Source: Photobacterium pectinilyticum
Lineage (GTDB): Bacteria; Pseudomonadota; Gammaproteobacteria; Enterobacterales; Vibrionaceae
Assembly (NCBI RefSeq): GCF_024357955.1
Contig: NZ_JANEYT010000007.1
Coordinates: 62,001-126,000 of the forward strand
Length of the DNA stretch: 64,000 nucleotides
Direction: 5' to 3'
The notes beneath the pieces were generated by a model. That model did not search any database, was not told where the DNA came from, and was given only the letters and a program-made list of their open reading frames with translations. Within the stretch, counting starts at the first letter, position 1. Every line of letters begins with the position of its first letter. The position numbers and the translations under genes are program-made. This document shows, piece by piece, positions 30,118 through 52,153 of this stretch.

Positions 30118-31047
30118 ATGCTATCGATTCATACTAATTACACATCTCTAATCACTCAGAACAACCTAAACAAAACGTCTGGCGCGATGGATAACGCGAT
30201 GCAACGCATCTCGACTGGCTTACGTATCAACTCTGCATCTGACGATGCTGCGGGCCTACAAATTGCCACTCGCCTTCAATCACAAGTAAATGGCTTAGGT
30301 GTTGCACAGCGTAATGCACAAGATGCGACATCTATGATGCAAACCGCTGAAGGTGCATTTGATGAGATGACTAACATCAGTCACCGCATGAAAGATCTAG
30401 CGACTCAAGCAGCAAACGGCACTAACTCTGCTGATGAGCACGATGCAATGCAGGCTGAGTGGGATCAACTGGCAGCTGAACTAGATAGTGTTATTGAAAA
30501 TACCCAATTTGGCTCTGGTAACAACTTGTTTGCAGCGGGTGGCCAATTTGATGGCGCTGTTACCTTCCAAATCGGCTCTTCAACAAGCGAAACACTGACG
30601 GTTGATATTTCTGACGGCCTAGGTGATATCCGTGATGCGATTGGTGCTCTAGCTTCTGCCGATCTTTCTGCTGCAGGAGATGAAGACCCAGCAGGTGACG
30701 GTTCACAACCAGCTATTCCAAGTGGTGCCGCTCTAGCGATGGACGCTGTTGACGCACTGCTAAATGGTAATGCTGATCCAGCAGGTGACGGTTCACAACC
30801 AGCAACTGTCGGTATCGGTTCAGTTCGCTCTGAGCTAGGTGCTAATATCAACCGTCTAGACCACACGATCACTAACCTTGGCAACATGGCGGAAAACACT
30901 GAAATGGCGAAAGGCCGTATCATGGATACTGACTACGCGGTTGAATCTTCAAACATGATGAAGAACCAGATGCTAACGCAGATGAGCATGTCTATGCTTT
31001 CTCAGGCGAACGGCATGTCTGGCATGGTAATGAGCCTAGTAGGCTAA
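30118..31047 (+). CDS. lafA: Lateral flagellin LafA
   Basis: LafA is the filament subunit. It has 309 residues: N-terminal D0/D1 ([40 protein letters not shown]) and C-terminal D1/D0 ([20 protein letters not shown], ending [11 protein letters not shown]) are complete. The central variable domain is short and contains the decapeptide [10 protein letters not shown] twice, about residues 190 and 220, from a 26-bp DNA repeat. Codon use is biased towards that of highly expressed genes such as pflB. GAGGG precedes the ATG. It is the only flagellin gene here and is followed by a terminator. Confidence 0.95.
30688..30803 (+). repeat. 26-bp direct repeat inside lafA
   Basis: Identical 26-bp segments at 30688-30713 and 30778-30803, 90 bp apart start to start, encode PAGDGSQPA in the same frame. 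The spacing is exactly 30 codons, so recombination between them would delete or duplicate 30 residues of the surface-exposed flagellin domain without breaking the frame. Confidence 0.9.
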
Positions 31048-31104
31048 TAAGCCCTCGCCTCAATACCAGATATATAAAGCGCAATCAAACCACTCCAATT
31101 AATC

Positions 31105-31134
31105 AAAAGCCGCAGCCCCCGCTGCGGTTTTTTT
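31105..31134 (+). terminator. Terminator after lafA
   Basis: CCGCAGC and GCTGCGG form a stem with a CCCC loop, preceded by AAAAG and followed by seven Ts, 58 bp after the lafA stop. Confidence 0.9.
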
Positions 31135-31385
31135 GTACTCAGAATATGGAAGTTACATTTGTTACCGATACACACCCATACGGTATCGTTAATAAATGGC
31201 AATAATGCTACCCGTCAATATTCTTGAATATTACCAGTCATAGAGTGCCGGGTTGGATAAACGGTTATTGAATTTAATTCTGTGGCAGTGCAAAGACATT
31301 GTGTGGTGTGTATGGCCAAGTCGACTCGCCCGTTGGGTGTTCACCAATAGACCCATTACGGGGTTAAATAACCTCATCATAGGTA

Positions 31386-31545
31386 TATCAACCTACATAA
31401 ATAATTGACCAGTCTTGCAGGTTAAAATCGCTGTTTTCTGCGTTAGATATTTTGTAATTAGAGCCACTAGTTACTGCGATATCTGCCTTGATAACAACGA
31501 TTTTTCCAGTGCAAATACTTGATCAACTACTTATTCAGATTGGTA
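31386..31545 (-). repeat. 160-bp MITE-like palindromic repeat, copy 2 (reverse)
   Basis: Reverse-oriented copy of the element at 17068: it starts TATCAACCTACATAAAT and ends TTATTCAGATTGGTA, 160 bp. The first end has one changed base (TATCAA for TACCAA), and the flanks (GTA and TTA) are not identical. It lies between the lafA terminator and the terminator of the FocA-like gene, in inverted orientation relative to copy 1. Confidence 0.85.
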
Positions 31546-31558
31546 TTATTCCAGCTAA

Positions 31559-31587
31559 TAAAAAACCGCAGCCTTGACTGCGGTTTT
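31559..31587 (-). terminator. Terminator of the FocA-CBS gene
   Basis: AAAACCGCAG and CTGCGGTTTT form a 10-bp stem with a CCTTGA loop, ending 36 bp before the stop codon side of the minus-strand FocA-like gene; A and T tracts on both sides allow bidirectional function. Confidence 0.85.
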
Positions 31588-31622
31588 CTCATTGGGAGAG
31601 TGTTATATTGGTAAGAAGCCGA

Positions 31623-33071
31623 TTAAACAACTTCTAAACGCGACACCGTTTGTGTTTTGGCATCTTGATAGATGTTGCGTAGCTCAGCCATTACACCCTC
31701 ACGGGTGACCGTGCCAACAAACTGGCCGTTATCCAGCACAGGCAGGATACGAGGCTTGCTCACTTGCAGCGCTTTTACCCGATCTTCCAATGAAAGGGCT
31801 GTGGTGCTGGTGGCGATCCCCATTGCCGAGGTGGGGTAAAGCTGCTCTTTATCGATACACAGAAACTCGACCACATCGACCAGGCGGTCTTTGGTATTAA
31901 CAGCAATAACATCTTGCTTCATCAAGTCGACCACCTTGGTCTCTTGGTTTGGCTGGTAGTCGCGGTACCACAACTCTTTCATTACATCGTACATCGACAA
32001 GAACCCGACTAAACGGCCTTGGATATCACAAACCGGTGCGCCTGAGACATTGGCGGTGGTCATCATGTCGATAGCGGTAGGGATCAGCATATCGGCCGAT
32101 AGGGTAAGAGGTTGTGGGTCGGTGATATCTTTAATGGTTAGGTGTGACAGCATATCGGCCTCCTTGACTGATGCGATGTCTAAGCTCTGGGTAATAGCAC
32201 GGATGTTTGCAGCCTTGAGCTCTGGGCGGCGGAAAATACACCAGTTAGTCAGGCCCACCAATACCGCACCGCCGACAATATTGCCCAGTGTCACCGGCAG
32301 CAAATTGGCCATTAGGAAGGTTGGGATATTCAGATCGCTGTACTGCTCTGGGCTGGCAGAGATCATTTGCCAGAATTGCTCGGGCGCAAAGTTCTGGATG
32401 GTGATACCCAGCGGCACCATAAACATATTGGCGACTGAGTGCTCGAAGCCGCTTGAGACGAACATAGAAACCGGCAGCACCATGATCATGGCTTTGCTTA
32501 AGGCGTTGGCTGAGCTGAAGGTCATCCAAATAGCCAAGCAAACAAGCAGGTTACACAGCACGCCTAATGAGAAAGCCTGTATTGGGGTGTGATGGAGTTT
32601 ATGCTGGGCGATATTGAGGGCATTCATGCCCCACTGGCCGTTGTTGAGCATGAACATACCGGCAGCGCTGATCAGCAGCAGCATAAACATGGCACCGATG
32701 AAGTTGCCGATATACACCTTGGCCCACAGGGAGAGCATCTTTCTTAGTGTGATCTGGCGGTTAGCCCAAGAAATACTGGACAGTACCGAACTGGTAAACA
32801 GCTCACCACCACATAGGACAATCAATATCAGCCCCATGCTGAACACCATACCACCGACTAAGCGGCTGAGACCCCATCCGGTCGTCGCGCTGCCAGTAGT
32901 AACCGTGATATAAAAAACAAAAGCAAGGCCAATAAACGCCCCCGCCATAATAGCCAACCCCAGTGTCATACCGCTGGTTTTCTTTGCTTTGCTTAGCGCG
33001 AACTTTTCCGCTTCCGCCATCATTTCCTTCGGCGAAAACAGTTGGTTATTGCTGGAATCTACGTTATTCAT
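31623..33071 (-). CDS. FocA-type formate channel fused to C-terminal CBS domains
   Basis: Residues 1 to about 290 are a formate/nitrite transporter (FNT) domain with six membrane segments; the pore histidine motif GFEHSVANMFMVP places His at 211, as in FocA. Residues about 312-475 form a CBS (Bateman) pair (VSGAPVCDIQGRLVGFLSMY; CIDKEQLYPTSAMGIATSTT; RILPVLDNGQFVGTVTREGV). Ordinary FocA is about 285 residues with no CBS tail, so this is a channel with a built-in nucleotide-sensing module. It lies between lafA and fliD, opposite in strand to both. Formate as substrate follows from similarity to FocA and from pfl and fhs nearby. Its tail is paralogous to the protein encoded at 42165. Confidence 0.9.
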   Translation of the reverse strand: MNNVDSSNNQLFSPKEMMAEAEKFALSKAKKTSGMTLGLAIMAGAFIGLAFVFYITVTTGSATTGWGLSRLVGGMVFSMGLILIVLCGGELFTSSVLSSISWANRQITLRKMLSLWAKVYIGNFIGAMFMLLLISAAGMFMLNNGQWGMNALNIAQHKLHHTPIQAFSLGVLCNLLVCLAIWMTFSSANALSKAMIMVLPVSMFVSSGFEHSVANMFMVPLGITIQNFAPEQFWQMISASPEQYSDLNIPTFLMANLLPVTLGNIVGGAVLVGLTNWCIFRRPELKAANIRAITQSLDIASVKEADMLSHLTIKDITDPQPLTLSADMLIPTAIDMMTTANVSGAPVCDIQGRLVGFLSMYDVMKELWYRDYQPNQETKVVDLMKQDVIAVNTKDRLVDVVEFLCIDKEQLYPTSAMGIATSTTALSLEDRVKALQVSKPRILPVLDNGQFVGTVTREGVMAELRNIYQDAKTQTVSRLEVV

Positions 33072-33639
33072 GCTTACCCCAAGTGCTACACATCCTTTCC
33101 GTCGGCGTTAACCGCTTCTAACTTGAATGTCCCTATCAAGCCATATGCCTAAAGTGCAGGCATTGCCATGATAAGAAAAACTGATAGCCATAGAAAGCTG
33201 AATCATCTTTTATTATGTGAAATATATGATTACATTTTCGTATATTGCGACATAGGTAGAAATAGTGGGTGTGCAACATGGCGCAAAGCAGGTGTGAAGC
33301 GGGGTGCCTATCTTCGTTGCCATCCCTGCCTGCTTTTGTTCTGTTTTTTAAAGCGTGTGTAGCGATAAAACTTTGAAATTGCTCACTGATATTTCTGTTA
33401 TTAAATATTTCTGTTGTGGTGGTGTGTGCGGGCGGATTTGTGCGTTTAATCGGGCGTGTTGGCAGCCTGGCAGAGCCGCAGGACGCACTCTAAAAGTGGG
33501 CTTTTTTGGGGGGGTATTTTGTCTTCGATTTTTTGACCTTTTCCCCGCTCCTTGCTTAGCACGGTTAAATGCCGTTTAAGTCATTAAGACATTCCATTGT
33601 TTTGTCGCCTTATATTGATAGCAACTTCAACTTTATTAA
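33072..33639. other. Intergenic region, FocA-CBS / fliD
   Basis: About 570 bp with no supported gene. It must contain the FocA-CBS promoter on the minus strand. Two short open frames on the plus strand (33168-33362, 33355-33579) lack ribosome sites and recognisable products. I saw no FNR box matching TTGAT-N4-ATCAA. Confidence 0.5.
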
Positions 33640-33681
33640 GCGGAATAAATATATTTCCGCAGGCGGAAATAAAGCTTCCGC
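33640..33681. promoter_or_regulatory. Cluster of GCGGAA/TTCCGC half-sites upstream of fliD
   Basis: Four half-sites in 42 bp form two palindromes: GCGGAA-N9-TTCCGC (33640-33660) and GCGGAA-N7-TTCCGC (33663-33681). They lie 103 bp upstream of a good sigma-54-like promoter, matching the cluster upstream of flgB. Candidate binding region for LafK. Confidence 0.55.
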
Positions 33682-33783
33682 TTATTCATAAAGAATGAAA
33701 TTACATATTTATTCGTTTGGCTAAATAGATTTAAAAATAATCAAATTCGGCCGTAAATAGCATGATTTTACTTAATTTAAAGT

Positions 33784-33799
33784 TGGAATGGTTCTTGCT
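33784..33799 (+). promoter_or_regulatory. Sigma-54-like promoter for fliD operon
   Basis: TGGAAT-N5-TTGCT matches the consensus TGGCAC-N5-TTGCW, with intact -24 GG and -12 GC and correct spacing. It is 67 bp upstream of the fliD ATG and downstream of the half-site cluster. Confidence 0.7.
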
Positions 33800-33865
33800 T
33801 TAAGGCTTCTGATTTAGATGTTTTTAGTGAAATTAGCGACTTCTGGCTGAGTGAGGAGAAACGCA

Positions 33866-35242
33866 ATGTCAATGATGGACCCAGCTTCAATGGCGATGCA
33901 AATGGTGATGATCCAGCGTCAGCCATTTGATATCCAATATGCTAACCAGCAGAAAACGTATCAGTCACAATTAGATGCGTGGAAAGATATCGATTCTGCT
34001 TTCAGTAGTTTTTCATCAGCGTTAGAACGTATGAACAAAGCAGATAATAGCTTTGTTAAAAATAGCGCGACGACAAGTGAAGATGGTTATATCGATGCTT
34101 CGGCGAGTAATTTTGCCCGTAATGGCAGTTACGACTTGTTCGTTAAGCAATTGGCTACCGCTCAACAAGAAGCCTTCACCTTAAAAGGGGAAGACTTGCC
34201 TACTGACGGCGTGATCACTATTGAAGTACCTGGTGGTGAAGCTATTGAAGTCGATTTTTCGACCTTCAACCCAGATGGCGACAAAGATATCCATGATTTG
34301 GCTGATTACATCAACGAGTTTGATGAAGGAGTCTCTGCCTCTGTAGTGCGTTCCGGCGATGATGTTAGCCTGGTTCTGAGTAGCACTGAAACCGGTGAAG
34401 AGAATGCATTCAAGGTGTCATTTGATCAGGGTATGGGTGATTACTTTGAGCCGCCACAGGTTCTGAGTAAGGCACAAGATGCCATTGTGATGATGGGCGG
34501 TGAAGATGGCCTTGAGATCCGTGATAGCTCAAACACTATCGATGGTGCTATTTACGGTGTGACGCTTGAACTAACCAAAGCGCATGAGCCGGGCGATAAG
34601 CCGCTAACCCTTGTTGTTGGTAGTGATGAGTCAGCATCGAAAGAGGCGGTTCAGGAATTCGTCGATGCTTACAACGATCTGGTTAACACCGTCCTTAAAC
34701 ACACTATGACTGATTACCAGCTCGAACAAGATGAAGATGACAGTAGCAGTGGTGATGACGATGATAGTAGTGACAACAGTATTACTATTACGGAAGCGGG
34801 TGCATTAGCCGGTGATTCAACCGCCCGCGGCCTCAAAAATATGCTCAATAATGTTACACGAGGCCAGTTTGATGAAGGCACGTTGTACAGCATTGGAATA
34901 GAAGCCAACCGTGACGGCACACTGAAAATTGATAGTGCTCGGTTTGAAAAAGCGCTCACTGAAACCCCTGAAAAAATCGATGCTATTTTCTTCGGTGACA
35001 ACGGTGCGTTAACCGCATTGGAAAAGGCTATTGAGCCTTACACCGGATCGTCTAACTCAGGCAGTAACTTGCTGAAAAGCCGTCAAGATACCCTGCAAGG
35101 CAATATTGACCGAGTTGACGATAAAAAAGAGCAACTCGATTACCGCATGGAAAAAACCTACAACCGCTACTTGCGTCAATACACCGCAATGCAGCAAACC
35201 ATGACGCAGATGGAATCGACCGGTTCCATGTTTATGTTTTAG
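33866..35242 (+). CDS. fliD: Lateral filament cap protein FliD (LafB)
   Basis: FliD caps the filament and promotes flagellin folding at its tip. The ATG at 33866, after GAGGAGAAACGCA, gives 458 residues; an in-frame ATG at 33851 has no ribosome site. The N-terminus MSMMDPASMAMQMVMIQRQP carries the FliD_N domain (QLDAWKDIDSAFSSFSSALE). Residues about 286-304 form an acidic, Ser-rich low-complexity run. The C-terminal FliD_C part ends RMEKTYNRYLRQYTAMQQTM, TQMESTGSMF. First gene of the late operon. Confidence 0.95.
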   Translation: MSMMDPASMAMQMVMIQRQPFDIQYANQQKTYQSQLDAWKDIDSAFSSFSSALERMNKADNSFVKNSATTSEDGYIDASASNFARNGSYDLFVKQLATAQQEAFTLKGEDLPTDGVITIEVPGGEAIEVDFSTFNPDGDKDIHDLADYINEFDEGVSASVVRSGDDVSLVLSSTETGEENAFKVSFDQGMGDYFEPPQVLSKAQDAIVMMGGEDGLEIRDSSNTIDGAIYGVTLELTKAHEPGDKPLTLVVGSDESASKEAVQEFVDAYNDLVNTVLKHTMTDYQLEQDEDDSSSGDDDDSSDNSITITEAGALAGDSTARGLKNMLNNVTRGQFDEGTLYSIGIEANRDGTLKIDSARFEKALTETPEKIDAIFFGDNGALTALEKAIEPYTGSSNSGSNLLKSRQDTLQGNIDRVDDKKEQLDYRMEKTYNRYLRQYTAMQQTMTQMESTGSMFMF

Positions 35243-35253
35243 AGGAACAACAA

Positions 35254-35649
35254 ATGTTAATGGATGACTCTGGCTTCGATGCGTACCAGCAAGTCGATGT
35301 AGAAGCACAAGCAGCGGCAGCGAGCCCTTATCAACTGGTACTGATGTTGGTTGACGGTTTTATGGATAATTTAACCCGCGCCGAAGGCCATATGGCGGCT
35401 AACCGCCTGAAGGAAAAAGGGGAATCTATCGGTAAGTGTATCGACATTATCGGTGGCCTTAATAGTGCGTTGGATATGCGCCAAGGTGGCGAACTCGCTC
35501 AGCAGATGAACCAGCTTTACGATTTTTGCAGCATGAAATTATTTGAAGCCAGCGTCCATAACGATGTGGTTAAACTGGCGGAAGTGCGTTCTGTGATGGG
35601 GAATATTCAAGAGGGGTGGCATAACTTCGGGGTAACCCATGAAGGTTAA
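35254..35649 (+). CDS. fliS: Lateral flagellin chaperone FliS (LafC)
   Basis: FliS binds flagellin before export. It has 131 residues with AYQQVDVEAQAAAASPYQLV and LMLVDGFMDNLTRAEGHMAA, the usual FliS signature, and the pattern GKCIDIIGGLNSALDMRQGG. It follows fliD by 11 bp; the stop overlaps the next gene by 11 bp. Confidence 0.94.
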   Translation: MLMDDSGFDAYQQVDVEAQAAAASPYQLVLMLVDGFMDNLTRAEGHMAANRLKEKGESIGKCIDIIGGLNSALDMRQGGELAQQMNQLYDFCSMKLFEASVHNDVVKLAEVRSVMGNIQEGWHNFGVTHEG

Positions 35650-35953
35650 CATTACTCAGATCAGACAACTCACTGTGCAGCTTAACCAGAGCTACAAGCG
35701 CAAAGAGTGGCAGTCAGTGCGTAAAATAGACAAAGAAATCTACAGCATGCTGGCTGATTTAAAAGCCCAGCCAGCGGTTGCCGAGTCACTTCGCCGCGAC
35801 ATCCTTCAGCTTAAAAAGGTGCATTTAGCCGCCATGACGGCGTGCGAAATGGAAAAAGAACACCTCGGACAGATGTTGGCAAAGTTCCAGAATCAGCGTG
35901 AAGGGGTATCGGAATACCAGCAGGTCGAGATGGCTGGAGGCTTTATTCGATGA
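35639..35953 (+). CDS. FliT-like chaperone (LafD)
   Basis: A 104-residue helical, Lys/Gln-rich protein (MKVNITQIRQLTVQLNQSYK) located directly after fliS, where the small FliT-type chaperone for FliD is usually encoded; the lateral version is called LafD in Vibrio. Sequence similarity to FliT is too low to see by eye, so the call rests on order, size and helicity. It overlaps both neighbours (11 bp with fliS, 4 bp with fliK). Confidence 0.7.
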   Translation: MKVNITQIRQLTVQLNQSYKRKEWQSVRKIDKEIYSMLADLKAQPAVAESLRRDILQLKKVHLAAMTACEMEKEHLGQMLAKFQNQREGVSEYQQVEMAGGFIR

Positions 35954-37041
35954 GCCATATTTCGATGTCACAGCCACATGGGAACGCGCAAGCCACAACG
36001 GCACGTCCATCACAGGTACAAACCGGTGACGGTGGCTCTTGGTTTGACAGTTTTGCAGCATTGCTTGGTCTAGATACTGGGGCTGAACTGGCCACGGCTG
36101 AGGTGTCCGGCGAGTCGGAGAATAACCCATATTGGTTCGATCTCTATGAGCAGCTTAAAGGGCTGGCAGAGGGTGAAGATTGGGTGTTCAGCAGCGCCCA
36201 TCCGTTTATGGAACAGCTGCCGCCAGAAGGGCAGTTCCGCCTGATCAATATTACCAATGAACTCAATAGCGATGTTCGTGAGCAATTGCTAGGCATGATG
36301 CGCAGTGCTGACGGCCTGCAAAGTGTATCGGTGCAGTTGGGGCAGACGCAGCCTGGGATCCCACATTACCTAGCGGCTAATGGCAGTGCTCAGGGCGAGT
36401 CTTTGTCGTTCGACCAAGCGATTGAGCGGGTGATTTCCAATGCGATGACGCCAGTCAGGCAGGAAACCACCAACCCAGTGTTACTTCAACAACTCGCGCA
36501 GGCAAGCAGTTTTACGACCTTATCATTGCAAGACTCACCGAATGCAGCCCCACTGCCTGCAGATGCCCAATCCAACAACGTAACGGCTTCTCGTGCTGAA
36601 TGGGCGCCTGTCAAAATGGCGGAAAACCAGCAGCAATGGGGACAGCAACTGGTGTCGGTACTTAAAGATCGGGTGCAGATGCATCTTAACCAAGATGTCC
36701 AGCATGCTCGTATCCGCCTCGACCCGCCTCATCTTGGCAGCTTAGAGCTGTCGGTCAAGGTGGAAAACAACAAGGTTCAGGTACATATCGCTGCCACAGA
36801 CCCTGCATTGCGCGAGGCCGCGCAGCAGGGCGCCGAGCGTTTGCGCGCCGAGCTTGAAGGCAAGCAACTCGCGGGCGCGATGGTCGATGTTGATGTGAGC
36901 GATCAATCACAGCAGCAAGCGTTTGAACAACAGCAAGATATGTCTTTGGCAATTCAGCCCGTGGTTGAAGAATCAGACTGGCATGAATCAACCGATCTCT
37001 TATTAAAGACGGATCAATATCGTCTCACTCGTATGGTGTAA
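35950..37041 (+). CDS. fliK: Lateral hook-length control protein FliK (LafE)
   Basis: FliK measures hook length and triggers the FlhB switch. It has 363 residues: a variable Gln/Ala-rich N-terminal two-thirds and a C-terminal Flg_hook domain (VQHARIRLDPPHLGSLELSV; KVENNKVQVHIAATDPALRE; RAELEGKQLAGAMVDVDVSD). Starts with an ATGA overlap with the preceding gene. In lateral systems this gene is named lafE. Confidence 0.92.
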   Translation: MSHISMSQPHGNAQATTARPSQVQTGDGGSWFDSFAALLGLDTGAELATAEVSGESENNPYWFDLYEQLKGLAEGEDWVFSSAHPFMEQLPPEGQFRLINITNELNSDVREQLLGMMRSADGLQSVSVQLGQTQPGIPHYLAANGSAQGESLSFDQAIERVISNAMTPVRQETTNPVLLQQLAQASSFTTLSLQDSPNAAPLPADAQSNNVTASRAEWAPVKMAENQQQWGQQLVSVLKDRVQMHLNQDVQHARIRLDPPHLGSLELSVKVENNKVQVHIAATDPALREAAQQGAERLRAELEGKQLAGAMVDVDVSDQSQQQAFEQQQDMSLAIQPVVEESDWHESTDLLLKTDQYRLTRMV

Positions 37042-37052
37042 GGAAAATAATA

Positions 37053-37520
37053 ATGGCTAGAACAAACGTAATGAGCACGAAAGTTATTCTGGCGGCACTT
37101 GCTGCCTCGGTGCTTATTGCCCTCTCATCGATTGCAACGTACGCGTTTATCGTCAATGACAGCTCGGCAGAGTTCAGCATTTTTGCTCGAAATGACGCGG
37201 ATAGCCGTGCTCATTTCATGAATCTCGATAAGTTTGTCATCACCATTGATGGTGAAGAGCGCACTCACTATCTGATGCTGGAGTTGGCGCTGAAGACGAA
37301 CTCGGCAAAGGCGCATGATCAGCTGGTTGAGTTCAAGCCGCTGGCGCGTAATGTCCTGCTGAAAATGTTTAGCCAAAGTACCTTCGAAGAGTTGCGTCAA
37401 ATGAATGAAATCGAACGGTTGCAAACAGAGGTACTGGGGCAGCTTCGCCAGGCAATGGCAGTAAATGGATATGCCTACCAGATTGAAGAAGCGTTGTTTA
37501 CCAAGCTCGTGCTGCAGTAA
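37053..37520 (+). CDS. fliL: Lateral FliL-type basal body protein (LafF)
   Basis: FliL surrounds the stator and supports torque on surfaces. It has 155 residues: one membrane helix (VILAALAASVLIALSSIATY, about residues 11-30) and a periplasmic domain with HFMNLDKFVITIDGEERTHY and QLVEFKPLARNVLLKMFSQS, the FliL pattern. 11 bp after fliK, 12 bp before the sigma factor gene. Confidence 0.9.
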   Translation: MARTNVMSTKVILAALAASVLIALSSIATYAFIVNDSSAEFSIFARNDADSRAHFMNLDKFVITIDGEERTHYLMLELALKTNSAKAHDQLVEFKPLARNVLLKMFSQSTFEELRQMNEIERLQTEVLGQLRQAMAVNGYAYQIEEALFTKLVLQ

Positions 37521-37532
37521 AGGAAGGGAATC

Positions 37533-38267
37533 ATGTTAGAAGCACAGCAATTACCGTTTGAGGATGAGTATGCCCAGTGGCAAACGAAGCCCTCACAGAA
37601 TAATGAAGAGCAGGTCTTGCGCCAGCACTTGAAGTTGGTGAAGCGTATTGTTCAACAGCTCCATCACCATGCATCGGGCTGTATGGGGCTGGATGATATG
37701 GAGCAAATTGGTTTGCTTGGCTTGCTTGAGGCAACTCGCCGTTATGGTGAAATGGATGAGAATTTCCGCTTCTTTGCTGCCCGCCGTGTACGCGGAGCCA
37801 TTTTAGATGAGTTACGCCGTCGCGACTGGCGCCCGCGTCAGCTGCGCCAACAAGTCCATGAACTTAATAAAGTATCCAAGTTGTTGACCAAGCAGTTGAA
37901 GCGCCATCCGAACGAACATGAATTGGCGAAAGCAATGCAAATCAGCTTGGAGGAGTGCCACCGTCTGCTCTACGCCGCTCAGGCGGAGGAGCTGTATAGC
38001 TTAGAGCAGTTATTTGAATCAGACAGCTCCAGTGTCGATTTTGGTCAGAGTGACAGTAATCTTCAGCACTTGATCAACGATGATCTGCTTAAGCATGTGT
38101 TGTCTCAATTGCCGAAGCGTGAACAGCTCATCTTGGATTTTTACTACCAGAAGGAGCTTAGCTTGAAGGAAATCGCCATTGTGGTTGGCCTGAGCGAAGC
38201 GAGGATCTGCCAGCTTCATAAGCAGGCCATTAAACAAATGAACGCCATGATTAAGAGCGTGATGTAG
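37533..38267 (+). CDS. lafS: Lateral sigma-28 factor FliA (LafS)
   Basis: LafS directs RNA polymerase to late lateral flagellar genes. It has 244 residues: region 2 with DDMEQIGLLGLLEATRRYGE and FRFFAARRVRGAILDELRRR, region 3 (LTKQLKRHPNEHELAKAMQI), and region 4 (LPKREQLILDFYYQKELSLK, EIAIVVGLSEARICQLHKQA). It presumably transcribes lafA and is held by the FlgM encoded at 17716. It lies inside the fliD-motB operon, so its own expression depends on the sigma-54 promoter at 33784 or an internal one. Confidence 0.95.
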   Translation: MLEAQQLPFEDEYAQWQTKPSQNNEEQVLRQHLKLVKRIVQQLHHHASGCMGLDDMEQIGLLGLLEATRRYGEMDENFRFFAARRVRGAILDELRRRDWRPRQLRQQVHELNKVSKLLTKQLKRHPNEHELAKAMQISLEECHRLLYAAQAEELYSLEQLFESDSSSVDFGQSDSNLQHLINDDLLKHVLSQLPKREQLILDFYYQKELSLKEIAIVVGLSEARICQLHKQAIKQMNAMIKSVM

Positions 38268-38277
38268 GAGAAAGGTT

Positions 38278-39135
38278 ATGCAAAAAATTATTGGTATCTT
38301 AATCATTATTATCTGTGTGTTCGGTGGCTTTGTGTTTGCGGGGGGATACCTCGGTACCATGTGGCAACCTGCAGAGCTGATGATCATTTTGGGCGCTGGT
38401 GCCGGTGCTCTGGCTATCGGTAACCCGCACCATGTGATCGTTGAAATGTGGCATCAGACCCGTGGCATCATGACCAAGCGCGATGAGCGCAAACTTTATC
38501 GCGAGCTACTTTCATTGATGTATCACTTGCTGGAGCAGGTACGTCAAAACGGTATGCGGGTGCTTGATGAACATATTGAAGAGCCGCACCAGAGCAGCTT
38601 GTTCCTGATCTACCCGGAAGTATTGGAGTACCCGAAGCTGGTCACTTTTATAACCGATAACTTCCGCTTGATGGCGATGGGTAAAATTACCGCCCATGAG
38701 CTGGAAAGCATGTTGGAGCTGGAACTCGAAGCTATCGAAGAAGATCTGATGGAGCCGTCGCACTCAATGCACCGGGTTGCCGAAGCAATGCCAGGTTTTG
38801 GTATTTTGGCGGCAGTGATGGGGATTGTGATCACCATGACCAATATCGATGGGGATATGGCGCAAATCGGCATCAGCGTCGCCCATGCTTTGGTGGGTAC
38901 CTTCCTCGGTATTTTCTTCTGTTACTGTGTGTTTGACCCGATTAGTACTGCCATGGCCAATCAGGTAAAGCGTGAGCTGTCTGCATTTGAGTGTGTAAAA
39001 GCCATGATGGTGAGTTACACCGCCGGTAAGCCGACGTTGGTTGCTGCGGACTCGGGCCGTAAGTTGATGTTACTCGATGTGAAACCGACCTTTGCTGAAA
39101 TGGAAGGCTGGGTAACGCAGCAGGTATTCCAATGA
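38278..39135 (+). CDS. lafT: Lateral stator protein MotA (LafT)
   Basis: LafT is the MotA-type subunit of the proton-driven lateral stator. It has 285 residues with four membrane segments (MQKIIGILIIIICVFGGFVF; MWQPAELMIILGAGAGALAI; about 170-190 with PGFGILAAVMGIVITM; about 200-220 HALVGTFLGIFFCYCVFDPI) and a cytoplasmic loop with the charged segment that contacts FliG. Overlaps lafU by 4 bp. Ion type is inferred from lateral homologues. Confidence 0.95.
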   Translation: MQKIIGILIIIICVFGGFVFAGGYLGTMWQPAELMIILGAGAGALAIGNPHHVIVEMWHQTRGIMTKRDERKLYRELLSLMYHLLEQVRQNGMRVLDEHIEEPHQSSLFLIYPEVLEYPKLVTFITDNFRLMAMGKITAHELESMLELELEAIEEDLMEPSHSMHRVAEAMPGFGILAAVMGIVITMTNIDGDMAQIGISVAHALVGTFLGIFFCYCVFDPISTAMANQVKRELSAFECVKAMMVSYTAGKPTLVAADSGRKLMLLDVKPTFAEMEGWVTQQVFQ

Positions 39136-40103
39136 TGAAGGGCAATACTGCAGATACAGTTATCATAAAAAAGCGCCGTAGCCGTGGTCATGCGGCTCGC
39201 CATGGCGGGGCGTGGAAAGTCGCCTTTGCCGACTTCACCTTGGCGATGATGGCATTTTTTATGGTGATGTGGGTGTTGCAGGTGACCACGGAAGATGAAA
39301 AGCAGCGCATTGTTGGTCGCCTCAGTGGCCAGCAACAGCTGCTGGCGCATGATGGCTTGTTTGTGGAGAACAGTCCGTTTGCGGTTGATTTTGGTGGAAA
39401 GGCATTGCCAGGCTTGCAGAGCCAGCAACCGAGTAATCCTCAGAATCTGGGTAACTCACTGACTATCAATGTGGTTGATGGCGATGGTGATAATTTTGGT
39501 GGGCTGGGAGAAGACGGGCCTTCACTTGTCCCTGGGCGCTATGAAAGCCATGAGCAGATGGTTGTACTGGGCGAGTACTTGAAAGATGTCAGTGAATTCC
39601 TTTCTGCTAGTAACCAACTATCGGTGGAAGTGGTACCGCAAGGGCTTCGGGTCCTGGTCAATGACGATAATGAAAAGCCGATGTTCAAACTGGGTGGGGC
39701 AGAGCTCACACCGTTTTTTGAGGATCTTCTGCTAGCGATTGCACCAACGTTTGCCACCATTGAAAACCCGATTATGATTTCTGGCCATGCTGATGCCAGT
39801 GGTTTTAGCCGTCGTTCAAGAGGTAATAACTGGGCCTTGTCTGGTGAGCGCGCACAAAAAGCGAGGGAAGTGCTGGAGTATGGCGGTATGCCAAGCGAGC
39901 GAGTCGCCCAAGTCACCGCAATGTCCGATACTATGCTGCTTGATGAAGATGCACCCTATAGCCATTTGAATCGTCGTATCGAGATCTTAGTGTTAACCTC
40001 GGATACAGAAGAGCAGCTACAGCAGTTGTTTGGCCGAGACAATGGTGAGTCATCACTGGAAGCGGCTAAGCAAGCCGCGTATGCCAACCAGCCAGTGAGC
40101 TGA
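39132..40103 (+). CDS. lafU: Lateral stator protein MotB (LafU)
   Basis: LafU is the MotB-type subunit that anchors the stator. It has 323 residues: basic cytoplasmic start (IIKKRRSRGHAARHGGAWKV), one membrane helix with the essential ion-carrying aspartate at Asp34 (VAFADFTLAMMAFFMVMWVL), plug region, and an OmpA-like peptidoglycan-binding domain (NPIMISGHADASGFSRRSRG; WALSGERAQKAREVLEYGGM; NRRIEILVLT). Last gene of the operon, followed by a strong terminator. Confidence 0.95.
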   Translation: MMKGNTADTVIIKKRRSRGHAARHGGAWKVAFADFTLAMMAFFMVMWVLQVTTEDEKQRIVGRLSGQQQLLAHDGLFVENSPFAVDFGGKALPGLQSQQPSNPQNLGNSLTINVVDGDGDNFGGLGEDGPSLVPGRYESHEQMVVLGEYLKDVSEFLSASNQLSVEVVPQGLRVLVNDDNEKPMFKLGGAELTPFFEDLLLAIAPTFATIENPIMISGHADASGFSRRSRGNNWALSGERAQKAREVLEYGGMPSERVAQVTAMSDTMLLDEDAPYSHLNRRIEILVLTSDTEEQLQQLFGRDNGESSLEAAKQAAYANQPVS

Positions 40104-40144
40104 CCTTTAAATCAGGTTCCAACGTCAGCGTGCTAGGTGACGAT

Positions 40145-40181
40145 AAAAGCCTGCCCATAATATTATGGGCAGGCTTTTTTT
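40145..40181 (+). terminator. Terminator after lafU
   Basis: A perfect 34-bp palindrome, AAAAGCCTGCCCATAAT against ATTATGGGCAGGCTTTT, continues into seven Ts; it starts 42 bp after the lafU stop. Confidence 0.92.
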
Positions 40182-40203
40182 ATAGATGCCCTGCTTTAAG
40201 TAA

Positions 40204-40363
40204 TACCAATTTGGATAAGCCGTTGATCAAGTATTTGCACTGGAAAAATCGTTGTTATCAAGGCAGATATTGCAGTAACTAGTGGCTCTAATTACAAAAT
40301 CTCTAACATAGATAGCAGCGATTTTAACCAGTAAAACTGATCAAATATTTATGTAGGTTGGTA
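40204..40363 (+). repeat. 160-bp MITE-like palindromic repeat, copy 3
   Basis: Forward copy starting TACCAATTTGGATAAGC and ending ATTTATGTAGGTTGGTA, 160 bp, flanked by TAA on both sides (40201-40203 and 40364-40366). Very close in sequence to copy 1. Lies between the lafU terminator and the terminator of the next, convergent gene. Confidence 0.85.
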
Positions 40364-40430
40364 TAAGGCTGTTGAGTGCCCTTGGATACGATACATAGAC
40401 TGATGAGTCTGCAGAGATGTTATATCACTT

Positions 40431-40464
40431 AAAAAGAAAGGGGGCTGATATGAAATCAGCCCCC
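40431..40464 (-). terminator. Terminator of the 40518-42050 gene
   Basis: GGGGGCTGAT and ATCAGCCCCC form a 10-bp stem with a five-base loop; on the minus strand it runs into TTTCTTTTT. It lies 54 bp beyond the stop codon. Confidence 0.85.
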
Positions 40465-40517
40465 TCTATGTTTCATTGAATCCGTTAAGCTAAACTCGCC
40501 AGACTCATAGACCCATG

Positions 40518-42050
40518 TTAAATCATTAAGGTCGAAGAAATAACGCCGATCAAGCCAGCACTTGCCAGTACCGTCACTGCTTTCTCTGCCATTTTACCGT
40601 TGCTTTCAGCAGCTTTGCCGAACATAGCGAACACAAATGGGTGTACCAGGAAGGTCATTGCAAAAGTAAAGGTGATAAGGCTTGCCGCTGTCGCGCCAAA
40701 CATACCTTCTTGTACTGCGGCAAACAGACCGAAGTGAGAAAGACCGGAAGCGGCAGACATCGATGCATGCTCAAGTGACATACCGGCTACGCTTAGCAGC
40801 GTGAAGCTACCGAAGACAGCCATGATCTGCCAACCAAGTGAGAATAACATTAGGCCTTTAACTTCTGTTTTTTCACAACCGTTGGCCGAACGTAGGCTTT
40901 TCAGTGCGAGGATAACAAACGCTGCGCCAGCTAGAATCAGTGGTAACGTCCAGCCAACCATTAGCGCTCCGCGCTCGGCACTTGCCGCCAAAATCGTAAA
41001 TACGAAGATGTGACCGGCAAACGGAATGTTGATCATAATCGGAGCACGAGAAGCCGCTGTGCGACCGAAGTCACCCGCAGTACATGCGCCAGTTAGACCT
41101 GAGTGAGACAAGCCTCCTGCCAGACCCGGTGCCAGATTACGTAAATGGTTAGATTTGCCGACAAAGATTAGCAGCGCAAGGCCACCGAACATCCAGAAAA
41201 TCTGACCGGAGAAACCGTACACGATAACACTCTGAAGACCAGGGATACCGAAGGCTTCAACCATGTGAGAGCCACCAACTAGGAAGCTACCAGATAGCAC
41301 CAGTGGGATACCCGCAAATAGTAGTGCGTTCATTGCCGGGCCATGCTTCCATTTTGGAAGTGCCGCACCCAAGCCTGAAGACAGAATCATGGCAAAGAAG
41401 ATCTGCGGTAGACCAATAATTGACGAAATCGTAGTAGCTAGCCATAGCGAGACGTTCAACACCACAATAATCGCAATAACTTCCAGTAGGCCTTTACGGA
41501 TGTATTGTGCTTTGTTGGAGATCACTGCTTTACGATCAACAAGGATAAACGCCAGTGCCAAACAGATGTAAGAAAGAAGTAAGAACGAGTCTCCCATTGC
41601 AAAATCTGCGGTACGGCCTGAAATCAGAACATCTGCAGTTTGAATACCAATGAGCAATAGGAAAGCACGAATAATGTACGTTAATTGCGTACTGCTTGTA
41701 CCCAATACCACTTCCTGAGCGGAAGGGGCAAAAAAGTCACACTCTTCATTAAAGTCTTGTTTTGAAAGCAGGCGTCTAATTTCCTGTCCACCAACGAAGA
41801 ATGAGGCGATCAATGCAATTACGGTTGTCTGGCCAATCAATGCAACAACAGGGAACTGTTCTAGTCCCGGTGTCGCCATACCGCTGTGTACCAATAGTGA
41901 GCCTAAAGCTAGACCGAACACAACGATAACTAACAATGATGAATACTTCGTACCAGCAACGATGGTACGGGCAACCAATACCATAATTGTTAAAGCGGCT
42001 ATCGCGATAACAAAATGGTTAAAAGCAAAAAGGTGGGAAACTTGTTCCAT
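40518..42050 (-). CDS. Unrecognised polytopic membrane protein, putative transporter
   Basis: Family not recognised. The ATG at 42048-42050, after TGGAGTTAAA, gives 510 residues; the frame extends 15 codons further upstream without a ribosome site. About 12 hydrophobic segments are visible, beginning HFVIAIAALTIMVLVARTIV, with a charged cytoplasmic loop near residues 90-115 (RRLLSKQDFNEECDFFAPSA). Gly/Ser-rich stretches such as GLAGGLSHSGLTGACTAGDF, LVGGSHMVEAFGIPG and SMSAASGLSHFGLF in the C-half could form re-entrant substrate loops. The CBS protein gene lies 114 bp upstream on the same strand, suggesting an operon and nucleotide-sensed transport. Proximity to pfl genes hints at an organic acid; this is inference. 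Confidence 0.85.
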   Translation of the reverse strand: MEQVSHLFAFNHFVIAIAALTIMVLVARTIVAGTKYSSLLVIVVFGLALGSLLVHSGMATPGLEQFPVVALIGQTTVIALIASFFVGGQEIRRLLSKQDFNEECDFFAPSAQEVVLGTSSTQLTYIIRAFLLLIGIQTADVLISGRTADFAMGDSFLLLSYICLALAFILVDRKAVISNKAQYIRKGLLEVIAIIVVLNVSLWLATTISSIIGLPQIFFAMILSSGLGAALPKWKHGPAMNALLFAGIPLVLSGSFLVGGSHMVEAFGIPGLQSVIVYGFSGQIFWMFGGLALLIFVGKSNHLRNLAPGLAGGLSHSGLTGACTAGDFGRTAASRAPIMINIPFAGHIFVFTILAASAERGALMVGWTLPLILAGAAFVILALKSLRSANGCEKTEVKGLMLFSLGWQIMAVFGSFTLLSVAGMSLEHASMSAASGLSHFGLFAAVQEGMFGATAASLITFTFAMTFLVHPFVFAMFGKAAESNGKMAEKAVTVLASAGLIGVISSTLMI

Positions 42051-42164
42051 TTTAACTCCAATAACTCTTACGATCAGCTCACAGGGGCGCCTCATGCATT
42101 AGATACATGATGTTCCAATAATGGTGTTAGGCAGGCTGTGGGCGAGTGACTTGTTTGTTACTAA

Positions 42165-42710
42165 TTAGGTAACAACCTGTGGGGCAACATTTCCAGCGAC
42201 TGGCGCTGGTGTCGTCGCATCATTAAATAGGGCGCGCAGGGCTTTTAATACTTCCTGGCGAGATACCACACCGACATATTTACCGTCTTCTAAAACAGGT
42301 AGAATTTGTGGCTTGTTAACCTTGATTGATTTAGCACGCTCTTCAAGCGACAAGGTTGTCATTTGCGTTGCATAGCCCATCGCGGTTGTTGGGTATAGCT
42401 GCTCTTTGTCCAGAGCCAGGAACTCAAGTGCATCAGTCAAGCGATCTTCGATATCCATGGTAACCAAATCTGTCTTCATTAGGTTTCCGACCGTTACATC
42501 CTCATCAGGAATGTAGTCTTGGCACCACATTTCTACCATGATGTCGTGGGCAGATAGGAAACCAACTAGGTTGCCGTTTGCGTCACAAACTGGTGCACCG
42601 TTAATGCGGTTTTTAGACAACACATCGATAGCTGAAGGTAAACTTGTTTCAATACTCAACGTCGGGGCTTGCGTATCTACAATGTCTTTCACTGTAAGTA
42701 AAGCGCTCAT
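42165..42710 (-). CDS. Stand-alone CBS-pair protein, paralogue of the FocA tail
   Basis: A 181-residue soluble protein made of one CBS (Bateman) pair. It aligns along its whole length with residues about 310-475 of the FocA fusion encoded at 31623: LTVKDIVDTQAPTLSIETSL, NGAPVCDANGNLVGFLSAHD, LALDKEQLYPTTAMGYATQM, LSLEERAKSIKVNKPQILPV, LEDGKYVGVVSRQEV. The CBS modules typically bind adenine nucleotides. The LDKEQLYPT-AMG-AT insert is shared only by these two here. Probably expressed with the membrane protein downstream; it may act as a detachable regulatory domain for it. Function is inferred. Confidence 0.85.
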   Translation of the reverse strand: MSALLTVKDIVDTQAPTLSIETSLPSAIDVLSKNRINGAPVCDANGNLVGFLSAHDIMVEMWCQDYIPDEDVTVGNLMKTDLVTMDIEDRLTDALEFLALDKEQLYPTTAMGYATQMTTLSLEERAKSIKVNKPQILPVLEDGKYVGVVSRQEVLKALRALFNDATTPAPVAGNVAPQVVT

Positions 42711-42975: not shown

Positions 42976-43325
42976 GTTTTGGTCTATTTTGTTTTAAGCG
43001 TATAAGCATTGTTGATGTGGTTTTGAATACTGATAAATTTAAATGATTTAGAATATTATCCTTAAATGAAGGGGGAGTGGAAATACTGCGCGAACAGGCA
43101 TTTGCTTACAGTTTTTCGAGTATTTACTGGGATGTAGTCGCTGATGTGCATACGACATACATTACCCAACTGTTAAAACTTGATACAATATTGACTGAGT
43201 TTATATAGTAATCAAATTAATTGATTTGCAGAAACACCCAAGAGCTAGGTACATAGAGCAGTCATTTGGGTATAGAAGTTACTTTACCGGCGCTGAGCCC
43301 ACCCGTTGTAAATCTAGGAGTATAA

Positions 43326-44234
43326 GTGCGCTATTCGTTGAAACAGTTATCAGTGTTTGATGCGGTTGCTGAATTGGGCAGTGTAAGCCAAGCTGCTGAA
43401 AGGTTGGGCGTTACCCAGTCTGCTGCCAGTATGTCACTCAGTCAATTAGAAAAACTACTAGGACGCGATCTTTTCGTACGCCAGGGTAAGGATATGCGCT
43501 TGAGCCATTGGGGCAACTGGTTGCGACCAAAGGCGCGGCGATTATTGCAAGATGCCGAGCAGATTGAAGCGGGCTTTTACGATCAACACCTTTTCAGCGG
43601 CAGTATCAGTATTGGTGCCAGCCAAACACCGGCAGAGCACTTGGTTCCAGAGCTTATCAGTATTCTTGATACTGATTTTCCAGAAGTCAGGACGGGGATG
43701 GATGTCAAAAGTAGTCAGGGTGTCATTGAAGGGGTTCTGAACTACAAATACGACATCGGCATTATCGAAGGCCGTTGTGATGACAACCGTACCCACCAGG
43801 AAGAGTGGTGTCGTGACCACCTCGTTGTTGTCAGTGCCTCTCATCACCCTTTTGCTAAGAACTCTCGAGTTAGCCTGGCACAATTGGAGCAAGCACAGTG
43901 GGTACTGCGTGAGGGGGGGGCCGGTACACGGGCGATTTTTGAAAGCGCGATGGTACCATTGATCCCTGATTTGGATGTGTGGCGTGAATACTCCCATGTA
44001 CCCGTGATCCGGACTATGGTCGCGAACGGTCATTACCTAACCTGCTTGCCTTATTTGGATGTTGCTCCGTATATTGAACGTGGAGAATTGGTCGCCTTGA
44101 ATGTCCCTGAATTAAAAATGGATCGGGCGATTTCGTTTATTTGGCGCAAGGAAATGGGTGATCACCCGTTACTGGAGTGTATTAAACGTGAAGGGCACCG
44201 AATGATGAAAAACCATAAACTTAAGATTTCTTAA
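43326..44234 (+). CDS. LysR-family transcriptional regulator
   Basis: A 302-residue LysR regulator with N-terminal winged HTH (LKQLSVFDAVAELGSVSQAA; ERLGVTQSAASMSLSQLEKL) and a C-terminal periplasmic-binding-like effector domain (GSISIGASQTPAEHLVPELI onwards). GTG start with AGGAG 5 nt upstream. It is divergent from the CBS/membrane-protein pair, a typical position for the regulator of that pair, and upstream of the convergent pflA. Effector unknown; a small anion is usual for the family. Confidence 0.92.
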   Translation: MRYSLKQLSVFDAVAELGSVSQAAERLGVTQSAASMSLSQLEKLLGRDLFVRQGKDMRLSHWGNWLRPKARRLLQDAEQIEAGFYDQHLFSGSISIGASQTPAEHLVPELISILDTDFPEVRTGMDVKSSQGVIEGVLNYKYDIGIIEGRCDDNRTHQEEWCRDHLVVVSASHHPFAKNSRVSLAQLEQAQWVLREGGAGTRAIFESAMVPLIPDLDVWREYSHVPVIRTMVANGHYLTCLPYLDVAPYIERGELVALNVPELKMDRAISFIWRKEMGDHPLLECIKREGHRMMKNHKLKIS

Positions 44235-44511: not shown

Positions 44512-45255
44512 TTAATAAATCACTCTAGCCGCTGTGTAGCTGCTGATGATCTCTTTGACTTTTTCCATCACTTCTTTTGATGGTGGCTTAACACCTGTCA
44601 GTTGGTAATCAAAGCCCATTGCTTCCCATTTGTGCTCACCGAGTTGGTGGTAAGGAAGAAGCTCGACTTTTTCGATGTTGTCCATATCTTTGATGAAGTC
44701 ACCCAGTAGGTGAGCAGAGCGTTCATCGTCAGTATATCCAGGTACAACAACATAACGGATCCAGGTTTTTTGGCCGCGTTGGTGCAGGTAACGGGCAAAG
44801 TCCAATACACGCTTGTTGGGCACGCCAACCAGGTTTTGGTGGATGCTGTCATCCAATTGCTTAAGGTCAAGCATCACTAAGTCAGAAGCGTCGAGCACTT
44901 CATCAACCACGTCTGTGTGTTTGCGGATATAGCCGTTGGTATCTAGGCAGGTGTGAATACCTTCGGCTTGTGCTGCGCGGAAGAAGTCACGAACAAACTC
45001 TGGCTGCAACATGGCTTCGCCACCAGAAGCGGTGACACCACCACCGGATGATTTCATGAAGAAGCGGTATGACTTAGCTTCATTGATCAGCTCTTCAACA
45101 GTGATTTCCTTGCCGTCATGGAGATCCCAGGTATCACGGTTATGGCAATATTGGCAGCGCATAAGGCAGCCTTGCATGAACACGATGAAACGAATTCCGG
45201 GACCGTCGACAGTACCGCAGGACTCAAAAGAGTGGATTCGACCTTTTACTGACAT
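44512..45255 (-). CDS. pflA: Pyruvate formate-lyase activating enzyme
   Basis: PflA is a radical-SAM enzyme that installs the glycyl radical on PflB under anaerobic conditions. It has 247 residues with the [4Fe-4S] motif CxxxCxxC at Cys30, Cys34, Cys37 ([11 protein letters not shown]) and the glycine-rich SAM motif [14 protein letters not shown]. It lies 248 bp downstream of pflB on the same strand, with a strong hairpin between them, so pflA may be partly uncoupled from pflB. Confidence 0.97.
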
Positions 45256-45503: not shown

Positions 45504-47780
<2,277 letters not shown>

Positions 47781-51774: not shown

Positions 51775-52153
51775 TATCGATCTCGTCACAAGACAGGAGG
51801 TTGAATGGCGCGAAGTATAACTAATTATGAACAAGTTGCCTAAATGTGGCCGGATTAGGCACGCGGTTCAATTCCGTACCTGCCCTAAACGAACATATTG
51901 ATGAAAGGCCAAATAGTGCTAATTGAAGTCACTGGGGGATGGAAACATTTTGTCGATATTTTGACCGCAGTCCCATATTGTGCGGGCGACCAGTGAAAGT
52001 AGTCACAGATATTCCCTATTGCTTGTAGCAGAATGAATTGGTCAGACGAGTTCTAACTAACTAATAATTCTGATTTAAAATAGATATTCACTACTTATGT
52101 CGGTGGGCGTTCACCTATGCAGACAAAAGTAGATGGAATCAAAGAGGGATACG
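51775..52153. other. Intergenic region ycaO / M20 peptidase
   Basis: A 379-bp divergent promoter region. I see no gene, no strong hairpin and no confidently matched operator in it. Confidence 0.4.

Follow-up and report, generated by a model that had tools for sequence, protein, structure and literature searches.

Why does one and the same CBS module stand at the end of a formate channel and, a second time, as a free protein beside a membrane protein of no named family? This question is raised by a stretch of 64,000 nucleotides from the marine bacterium Photobacterium pectinilyticum (contig NZ_JANEYT010000007.1, positions 62,001 to 126,000), which we refer to as the window. On its minus strand the window encodes a FocA-type channel with a C-terminal CBS pair (FocA-CBS, 31623-33071), as well as a free CBS-pair protein (42165-42710) followed by a membrane protein with 510 conserved residues, which we named T510 (40518-42050). 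A LysR-type regulator (43326-44234) is encoded on the plus strand, divergent from the CBS-T510 pair. In related bacteria both CBS forms are usually found beside sister copies of this LysR regulator, and bacteria may thus be able to move a finished control unit from one transporter to another, unrelated one. Judging from the sequences, it is about an even call that LysR and CBS form an exchangeable control cassette for transporters, employed here at the pfl locus, with gating and ligand being presumed.

A CBS pair on FocA and its free paralog

FocA-CBS comprises 482 amino acids, with an FNT channel at residues ~16-281. Pfam assigns Form_Nir_trans to residues 16-277 (246.6 bits versus a cut-off of 34.6) and CBS to residues 313-367 (56.2 bits versus a cut-off of 24), and the protein also passes the NCBIfam model formate_focA (TIGR04060; 383.6 versus 290.1 bits). 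The residues T93 and H211, which we equated with T91 and H209 of Escherichia coli FocA by an offset of 2 taken from the phmmer ranges, are invariant across 26 aligned FocA-CBS proteins. In E. coli both are pore residues, with roles given in the available passages of PMC9380403. P. pectinilyticum has two further FNT genes, whose open frames of 301 and 299 amino acids leave no space for a CBS tail. The sequence-only reading had described an extra tail that forms a CBS pair on a FocA-like protein. The coordinates, the FNT channel and the CBS tail all hold; as to the pair, Pfam registers a single CBS stretch here because the other half of the tail has diverged, and a pair is suggested by the gapless alignment to the free protein, in which two stretches are found.

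This free protein of 181 amino acids is encoded on the same strand as T510, 114 bp upstream of the T510 start, and contains two CBS stretches (72 bits versus a Pfam cut-off of 24). As had been noticed from the sequence alone, it aligns with the FocA tail: residues 1-167 match residues 307-473 of FocA-CBS (31653-32153, minus strand) without a gap, with 51% identity, 76% positives and an E-value of 1e-62. At the sequence level this likeness is far above chance and above generic CBS resemblance, because the best NCBIfam match of the free protein, the CbpB profile (NF041630), reaches just 43.6 bits and stays under its cut-off of 125. With the free protein as query, these two loci are the sole whole-module matches in the genome of P. 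pectinilyticum, a third CBS protein matching at 29% over residues 5-99.

CBS motifs of the GxxSxxD type hold ribose or phosphate. In the first CBS half this motif is kept in 12/12 free copies (pattern G..[ST]..D) and, as G..[ST]..[DN], in 36/37 fused copies, and the two sets have 23 conserved positions in common. These observations argue against the explanation that the CBS pairs no longer bind a ligand and serve in assembly or stability instead. We consider this quite unlikely, although in the fused copy Pfam misses the second half, whose motif is degenerate, with Asp in 16/37 fused copies. Thirteen further positions distinguish free from fused copies, which may fit an altered partner surface, or drift.

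T510 and the linkage of the free CBS gene

T510 lies within an ORF (open reading frame) of 525 amino acids (40518-42095), of which the conserved part of 510 residues starts at 42050; with this refinement the earlier description of an unrecognized 510-residue membrane protein adjoining the free CBS gene is correct. The protein has no match in Pfam and NCBIfam up to an E-value of 0.1 and no chain in the PDB sequences at an E-value of 1, and 49 relatives gave scattered weak Pfam matches, the best at 0.034. Going by its relatives, T510 is an unnamed, strongly conserved membrane protein family across phyla, for which neither Pfam nor NCBIfam holds a model. The best 80 of 165 relatives from named genomes, all with at least 51% identity, belong to Vibrionaceae, Aliagarivorans, Psychromonas, Fusobacteriaceae, Clostridia, Bacillaceae, Bacteroidales, Balneolaceae and others.

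A structural model from 49 sequences is helical (predicted local distance difference test, pLDDT, 85; predicted template modelling score, pTM, 0.85), with broken-helix stretches around residues 303-341 and 426-447. Foldseek returned nothing at an E-value of 0.001, the top rows being of MFS type at 0.009 and above. VIA-align gave a Z of 9.6 for OadB and of ~8 to 9 for SLC9C1, SOS1, NHA2 and CitS, with a root mean square deviation of 4.5-6.4 Å over 212-264 residues in the top 20 rows. Since these Z values lie, according to the tool, inside the background of helical models, an elevator-type fold as in CPA, CitS or OadB is a lead only. With shallow alignments (effective number of sequences, Neff, ~2 to 3), profile comparisons revealed no link of T510 to OAD_beta and GltS relatives and no match between its N-terminal and C-terminal halves. 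Outside the CBS clade no constant neighbour of T510 was seen, and therefore the loci give no clue to the substrate. Many carriers are, judged by name, organisms that we take to be fermenters or to come from soda-lake samples, and an anion tied to mixed-acid fermentation would be our guess for the substrate. A membrane-type protein of ~247 amino acids recurs in five Vibrio T510 loci (L092, L094, L096, L098, L089), and in the first four of them it is encoded directly downstream of a CBS-less T510.

T510 is present in 23/329 Vibrionaceae genomes, and in a class-wide draw of 369 genomes it was found in that of P. pectinilyticum alone. The 23 genomes hold 30 T510 copies with loci, a broken copy (G153:C129) being outside this count. 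All 17 copies with 73.9-100% identity to that of the window have the CBS gene directly upstream, and all 13 copies with 64.2-67.7% identity are without CBS in the flanking stretch examined. Among the best 80 named loci, 13 contain a CBS gene, and these are exactly the 13 closest ones (L079-L091, at least 71% identity). A lack of co-occurrence between the free CBS gene and the membrane protein gene would, by its own criterion, have spoken against the sequence-only reading; for the close relatives of T510 the opposite was found.

This linkage also bears on the explanation that the free CBS protein acts on FocA or FocA-CBS, by mixed assemblies or by ligand titration, and that its adjacency to T510 is a mere operon convenience. 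The free protein is indeed akin to the FocA tails; in P. sanctipauli (L081) FocA-CBS follows CBS-T510 in the same orientation, a single ORF separating them, and two genomes that we describe below have a CBS gene overlapping FocA (G966) or a free CBS gene near FocA-CBS without any T510 (G919). Nevertheless, we regard an action on FocA as unlikely, given the position of the CBS gene directly upstream of 17/17 close T510 copies. Moreover, FocA-CBS is encoded on another contig or at a distance in five genomes (G118, G300, G121, G133, G146), and one genome (G130) has CBS-T510 and no FocA-CBS match at all. The other 22 of the 23 T510-bearing Vibrionaceae genomes have a FocA-CBS-like match (E-value 2.6e-40 or better). 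In five of them (G153, G201, G228, G283, G323) it lies in a frame of 186-406 amino acids, and in the two that were inspected, G201 and G323, two frames share the FocA part.

The fused form is the common one. Using the CBS module of the window as query in 150 Vibrionaceae genomes, a match in a long frame (at least 288 amino acids, E-value 4.1e-32 or better) was found in 99, and free CBS genes with at least 72% identity in eight; in two further genomes, frames of 501 and 505 amino acids matched at 4e-18. In the 20 fetched regions FocA and CBS share one frame, except for L190 and L208, where the FocA part is in the next frame. In a phylum-wide draw of 349 genomes at least ten have FocA-CBS over nearly the whole profile, which are, among the matches listed, 8/9 Vibrionaceae as well as G919 and G844 from two other families of the order. 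In one genus of the same order, 9/24 genomes have a CBS match in frames of at least 491 amino acids, an assignment made by frame length with the FocA part unread; four of them entered the quick CBS tree described below as fused copies. Aliagarivorans has FocA-CBS as well. The idea that FocA-CBS is restricted to Vibrionaceae was dropped after the matches in other families and in Aliagarivorans. Long open frames in G963 and G435, inspected by eye in the ORF lists, proved to hold FNT genes with the usual domain content and no fusions. The FocA part is frame-split in four genomes (L190, L208, L235, L236), which are either pseudogenes or assembly errors. A decay of FocA-CBS where CBS-T510 is present was also considered; such splits occur in genomes with T510 (L235, L236) and without a T510 match (L190, L208).

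LysR regulator, shared palindrome and probable origin of the free form

The LysR regulator of the window is related to YeiE (212.3 bits with NCBIfam NF040889), under the cut-off of 480. A LysR gene adjoins FocA-CBS in 18/20 fetched regions, divergently in 17 and convergently in one (L206), and it is divergent from CBS-T510 in 11/13 named loci, the other two being cut at a contig end (L085) or having another ORF at this place (L088). Vibrio maerlii (L087) contains both units with one LysR each, and so does Aliagarivorans, in which the LysR of the FocA-CBS unit is convergent. A LysR gene together with an operator-like palindrome accompanies both CBS forms, an association that was absent from the sequence-only reading.

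LysR as the most constant partner raises the question whether the CBS module partners LysR or its transcription circuit and gates no transporter. LysR and CBS do accompany each other at FocA, at T510 and also in G919, in a unit that has no transporter. However, the commonest CBS form is part of a membrane channel protein, FocA-CBS also exists without an adjacent LysR (L189, L193, L237, L238), and G966 has FocA and CBS with no LysR in the 8.7 kb covered there, so that we hold a pure LysR partnership to be very unlikely.

The palindrome ATCA-N7-TGAT is located between the free CBS gene and LysR (43211-43225), ~100 bp before the LysR start, and contains T-N11-A, the usual form of LysR sites. A survey of palindromes with two four-base halves and 1-11 bases between them, performed on 29 LysR/CBS and LysR/FocA intergenic regions, found it in 23 regions (11/11 of the T510 type and 12/18 of the FocA type); the next best palindrome occurs in 10, and in five shuffles of the regions no such palindrome occurred in more than five. 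After removal of duplicates (L091, L233, L234) and addition of L280-L282, the rule-picked regions contain it in 24/28 cases (11/11 LysR/free CBS and 13/17 LysR/FocA) compared to 9/82 other divergent regions of the same loci (Fisher p 5e-13, with no correction for kinship); before, the numbers were 25/29 and 7/82. In Aliagarivorans the palindrome precedes FocA-CBS as well as the LysR gene belonging to it, although these two genes are not divergent. Over the entire window there are six matches versus 1.36 expected, a number that was reached in 1/100 shuffles. A copy with one mismatch, ATCAGTTTTTCTTAT (33171-33185, minus strand), lies 100-114 bp upstream of the FocA-CBS start codon. Seven stretches upstream of FocA-CBS genes without adjacent LysR have the exact site in two cases (L237, L238) and at best a one-mismatch site in five; in the window, L079, L081 and L189 the latter is positioned ~114-117 bp before the start codon.

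The CBS module has come off the channel more than once. In G966, FocA (a frame of 329 amino acids) and CBS appear as separate genes that overlap in TAATG, with AAGGG five bases before the ATG, and the overlap looks like translational coupling and not like a reading error. Among 24 congeners this genome is the one with a close CBS match in a short frame. In G919, a unit of LysR and free CBS adjoins a unit of LysR and FocA-CBS; the two LysR proteins are sisters (support 93/74, and 89/69 in the tree with YeiE as outgroup), as are the two CBS modules in a quick tree (Shimodaira-Hasegawa-like approximate likelihood ratio test, SH-aLRT, 96), with a very long branch for one of the two. G110 has a second, free CBS gene downstream of FocA-CBS, which is sister to the tail of the latter (98/77). 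In the quick tree of 59 CBS rows, the starred branches force at least four changes between the free and the fused state. In another locus (L207:7260-8352), ~1.1 kb between FocA-CBS and a free CBS gene are without any ORF of at least 80 amino acids, perhaps as the remnant of a lost gene.

Concerning the Vibrionaceae T510 loci, ten T510-linked LysR proteins form one clade (100/100) within the FocA-CBS-linked ones on starred branches of midpoint-rooted trees, and with E. coli YeiE as outgroup they are still placed inside (98/90 for the branch of 17 rows). A tree in which the T510-linked LysR proteins branch first is weakly rejected (approximately unbiased (AU) test, p 0.027, likelihood difference 3). 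Likewise, the twelve free CBS proteins of these loci form one clade among the fused ones (100/99, and 99/99 in a second tree). Since the free CBS proteins are placed among the FocA-CBS tails and their LysR proteins among those of FocA-CBS, the simplest and probable history is a joint duplication of LysR and CBS out of a FocA-CBS unit, whereby the transporter was exchanged; the trees make the reverse direction less likely.

Several observations weigh against the view of a LysR-CBS cassette that was passed on in this way. As to the trees, the CBS trees and the other LysR trees are midpoint-rooted, and YeiE, the sole outgroup, sits on a very long branch of the LysR tree; the outgroup result is therefore modest evidence. 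All fused CBS copies, together with the free one of G110, as one clade are not rejected (p 0.117), and therefore the CBS tree alone gives no direction. Aliagarivorans is no clean fit to LysR-CBS-T510 having arisen once: for LysR, a joint clade of all T510-linked proteins including this genus was tried and is rejected (AU p 0.004), while the corresponding clade of CBS proteins is not (p 0.139 and 0.063), and the T510 tree does not settle its placement. Because the Aliagarivorans branches are long, a second recruitment or an exchange is possible. With respect to the units themselves, FocA-CBS of the window has no adjacent LysR and just the one-mismatch site, the palindrome is missing from 4/17 FocA-type regions, and the free CBS of G919 has no transporter gene of its own. 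Furthermore, no CBS gene was found in 67 of the best 80 T510 loci, although in five of these (L097, L099, L113, L115, L145) the upstream sequence is shorter than 655 bp and could not have revealed one; CBS is therefore no general requirement of T510. Finally, the second CBS half has diverged, with Glu for the motif Asp in 12/12 free copies, and the monomer model of FocA-CBS (pTM 0.49) is too poor for placing the tail.

On the minus strand of the window ycaO (50017-51834), a DUF3360 permease (47986-49500), the pyruvate formate-lyase gene pflB (45504-47780) and its activating enzyme gene pflA (44512-45255) precede the plus-strand LysR, beyond which the free CBS and T510 genes (minus), a plus-strand block (33851-40103) that includes FliD and MotB by Pfam names, FocA-CBS (minus) and a flagellin gene (30118-31047, plus) are located. 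In E. coli the gene order is ycaO-focA-pflB-pflA. P. sanctipauli (L081) has the order ycaO, DUF3360, pflB, pflA, LysR, CBS, T510, one ORF, FocA-CBS. Since this order contains no flagellar block, the block may be an interruption in the window. FocA-CBS sits there on the opposite strand inside the flagellar cluster (30118-40103), between flagellin and fliD; P. lutimaris (L079) has ORFs of similar size and order to this cluster, P. sanctipauli has none. The DUF3360 permease, placed between ycaO and pflB, may be part of the same acid-transport business. No paper of the PMC literature searched names DUF3360. By eye, a relative of it is apparent 43 bp upstream of T510 in a Clostridia metagenome-assembled genome (L101).

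Proposed mechanism and comparison with known systems

If LysR and CBS indeed form a control cassette, it would work in two tiers, one being a LysR-type regulator with its putative operator and the other a CBS-pair module, which commonly forms the C-terminal tail of a FocA formate channel. In a branch of the Vibrionaceae the LysR gene and the CBS part would have been duplicated together with loss of the channel part, and the CBS gene would then head a two-gene unit with T510. LysR would bind the palindrome and drive both units, and the conserved site in the first half of the CBS pair would take up an adenine nucleotide or a related ligand. On the cytoplasmic face, the pair would open or close FocA in cis and T510 in trans, the latter presumably carrying an anion that has to do with mixed-acid fermentation. 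The cell would probably benefit in that the flux of formate or of another acid tracks the energy state once the LysR signal has turned the genes on. The claim of the sequence-only reading that one module is used in cis and in trans holds as far as the same CBS module is fused to FocA and free beside T510, in view of the homology, the linkage and the split genes of G966; its gating part stays conditional. That the complete set of LysR, operator and CBS energy sensor was passed between unrelated transporters, with FocA gated in cis and a member of the widespread T510 family in trans and both fluxes following a single signal and a single ligand, we propose as a tentative and rather doubtful extension. 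FocA would thereby gain a possible energy sensor, and the T510 family, which spans several phyla and has no Pfam or NCBIfam model, a first functional handle.

Compared with FocA (FNT structures 3kcu, 3q7k, 3kly), the window protein has the same FNT region, passes the formate_focA cut-off and keeps the pore Thr and His. It differs by the CBS pair past the last membrane helix, whereas E. coli and V. cholerae FocA stop a few residues from a Y-L-R/K motif according to the available passages of PMC5572259. The E. coli FocA model PRK10805 is not reached by FocA-CBS (340 versus 440 bits). Gating of E. coli FocA is tied to PflB in the available part of PMC11841067. No description of an FNT-CBS fusion was found in the accessible passages of the PMC literature, with subscription papers and domain databases outside this search, where it may well be listed as a domain architecture, and the main text of a 2017 FNT survey (PMC5525234) contains no CBS.

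The YeiE/YeiH system of E. coli and Salmonella likewise has a LysR gene divergent from a transporter gene (PMC12880088, in the passages available; E. coli record). YeiH belongs to PF03601, whereas Pfam yields no family for T510, and the same passages of PMC12880088 mention no CBS partner. The c-di-AMP-related free CBS proteins of the CbpB type are, like the free protein, small soluble CBS pairs, to which it shows the weak profile match under the cut-off. Passages of the CBS-transporter literature gave no description of a paralog of a transporter's CBS module beside another transporter, and the available text of the review PMC10710835 mentions neither FocA nor formate. CBS pairs on transporters as such are already known, as MgtE, CorB/CNNM, an ABC importer and some MFS proteins likewise carry them, and in that text CBS domains on transporters are termed plug and play. 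The natural series described here, in which the module is fused, split or re-used beside another transporter, usually with a LysR of the same family, allows the portability of such CBS domains to be addressed directly.

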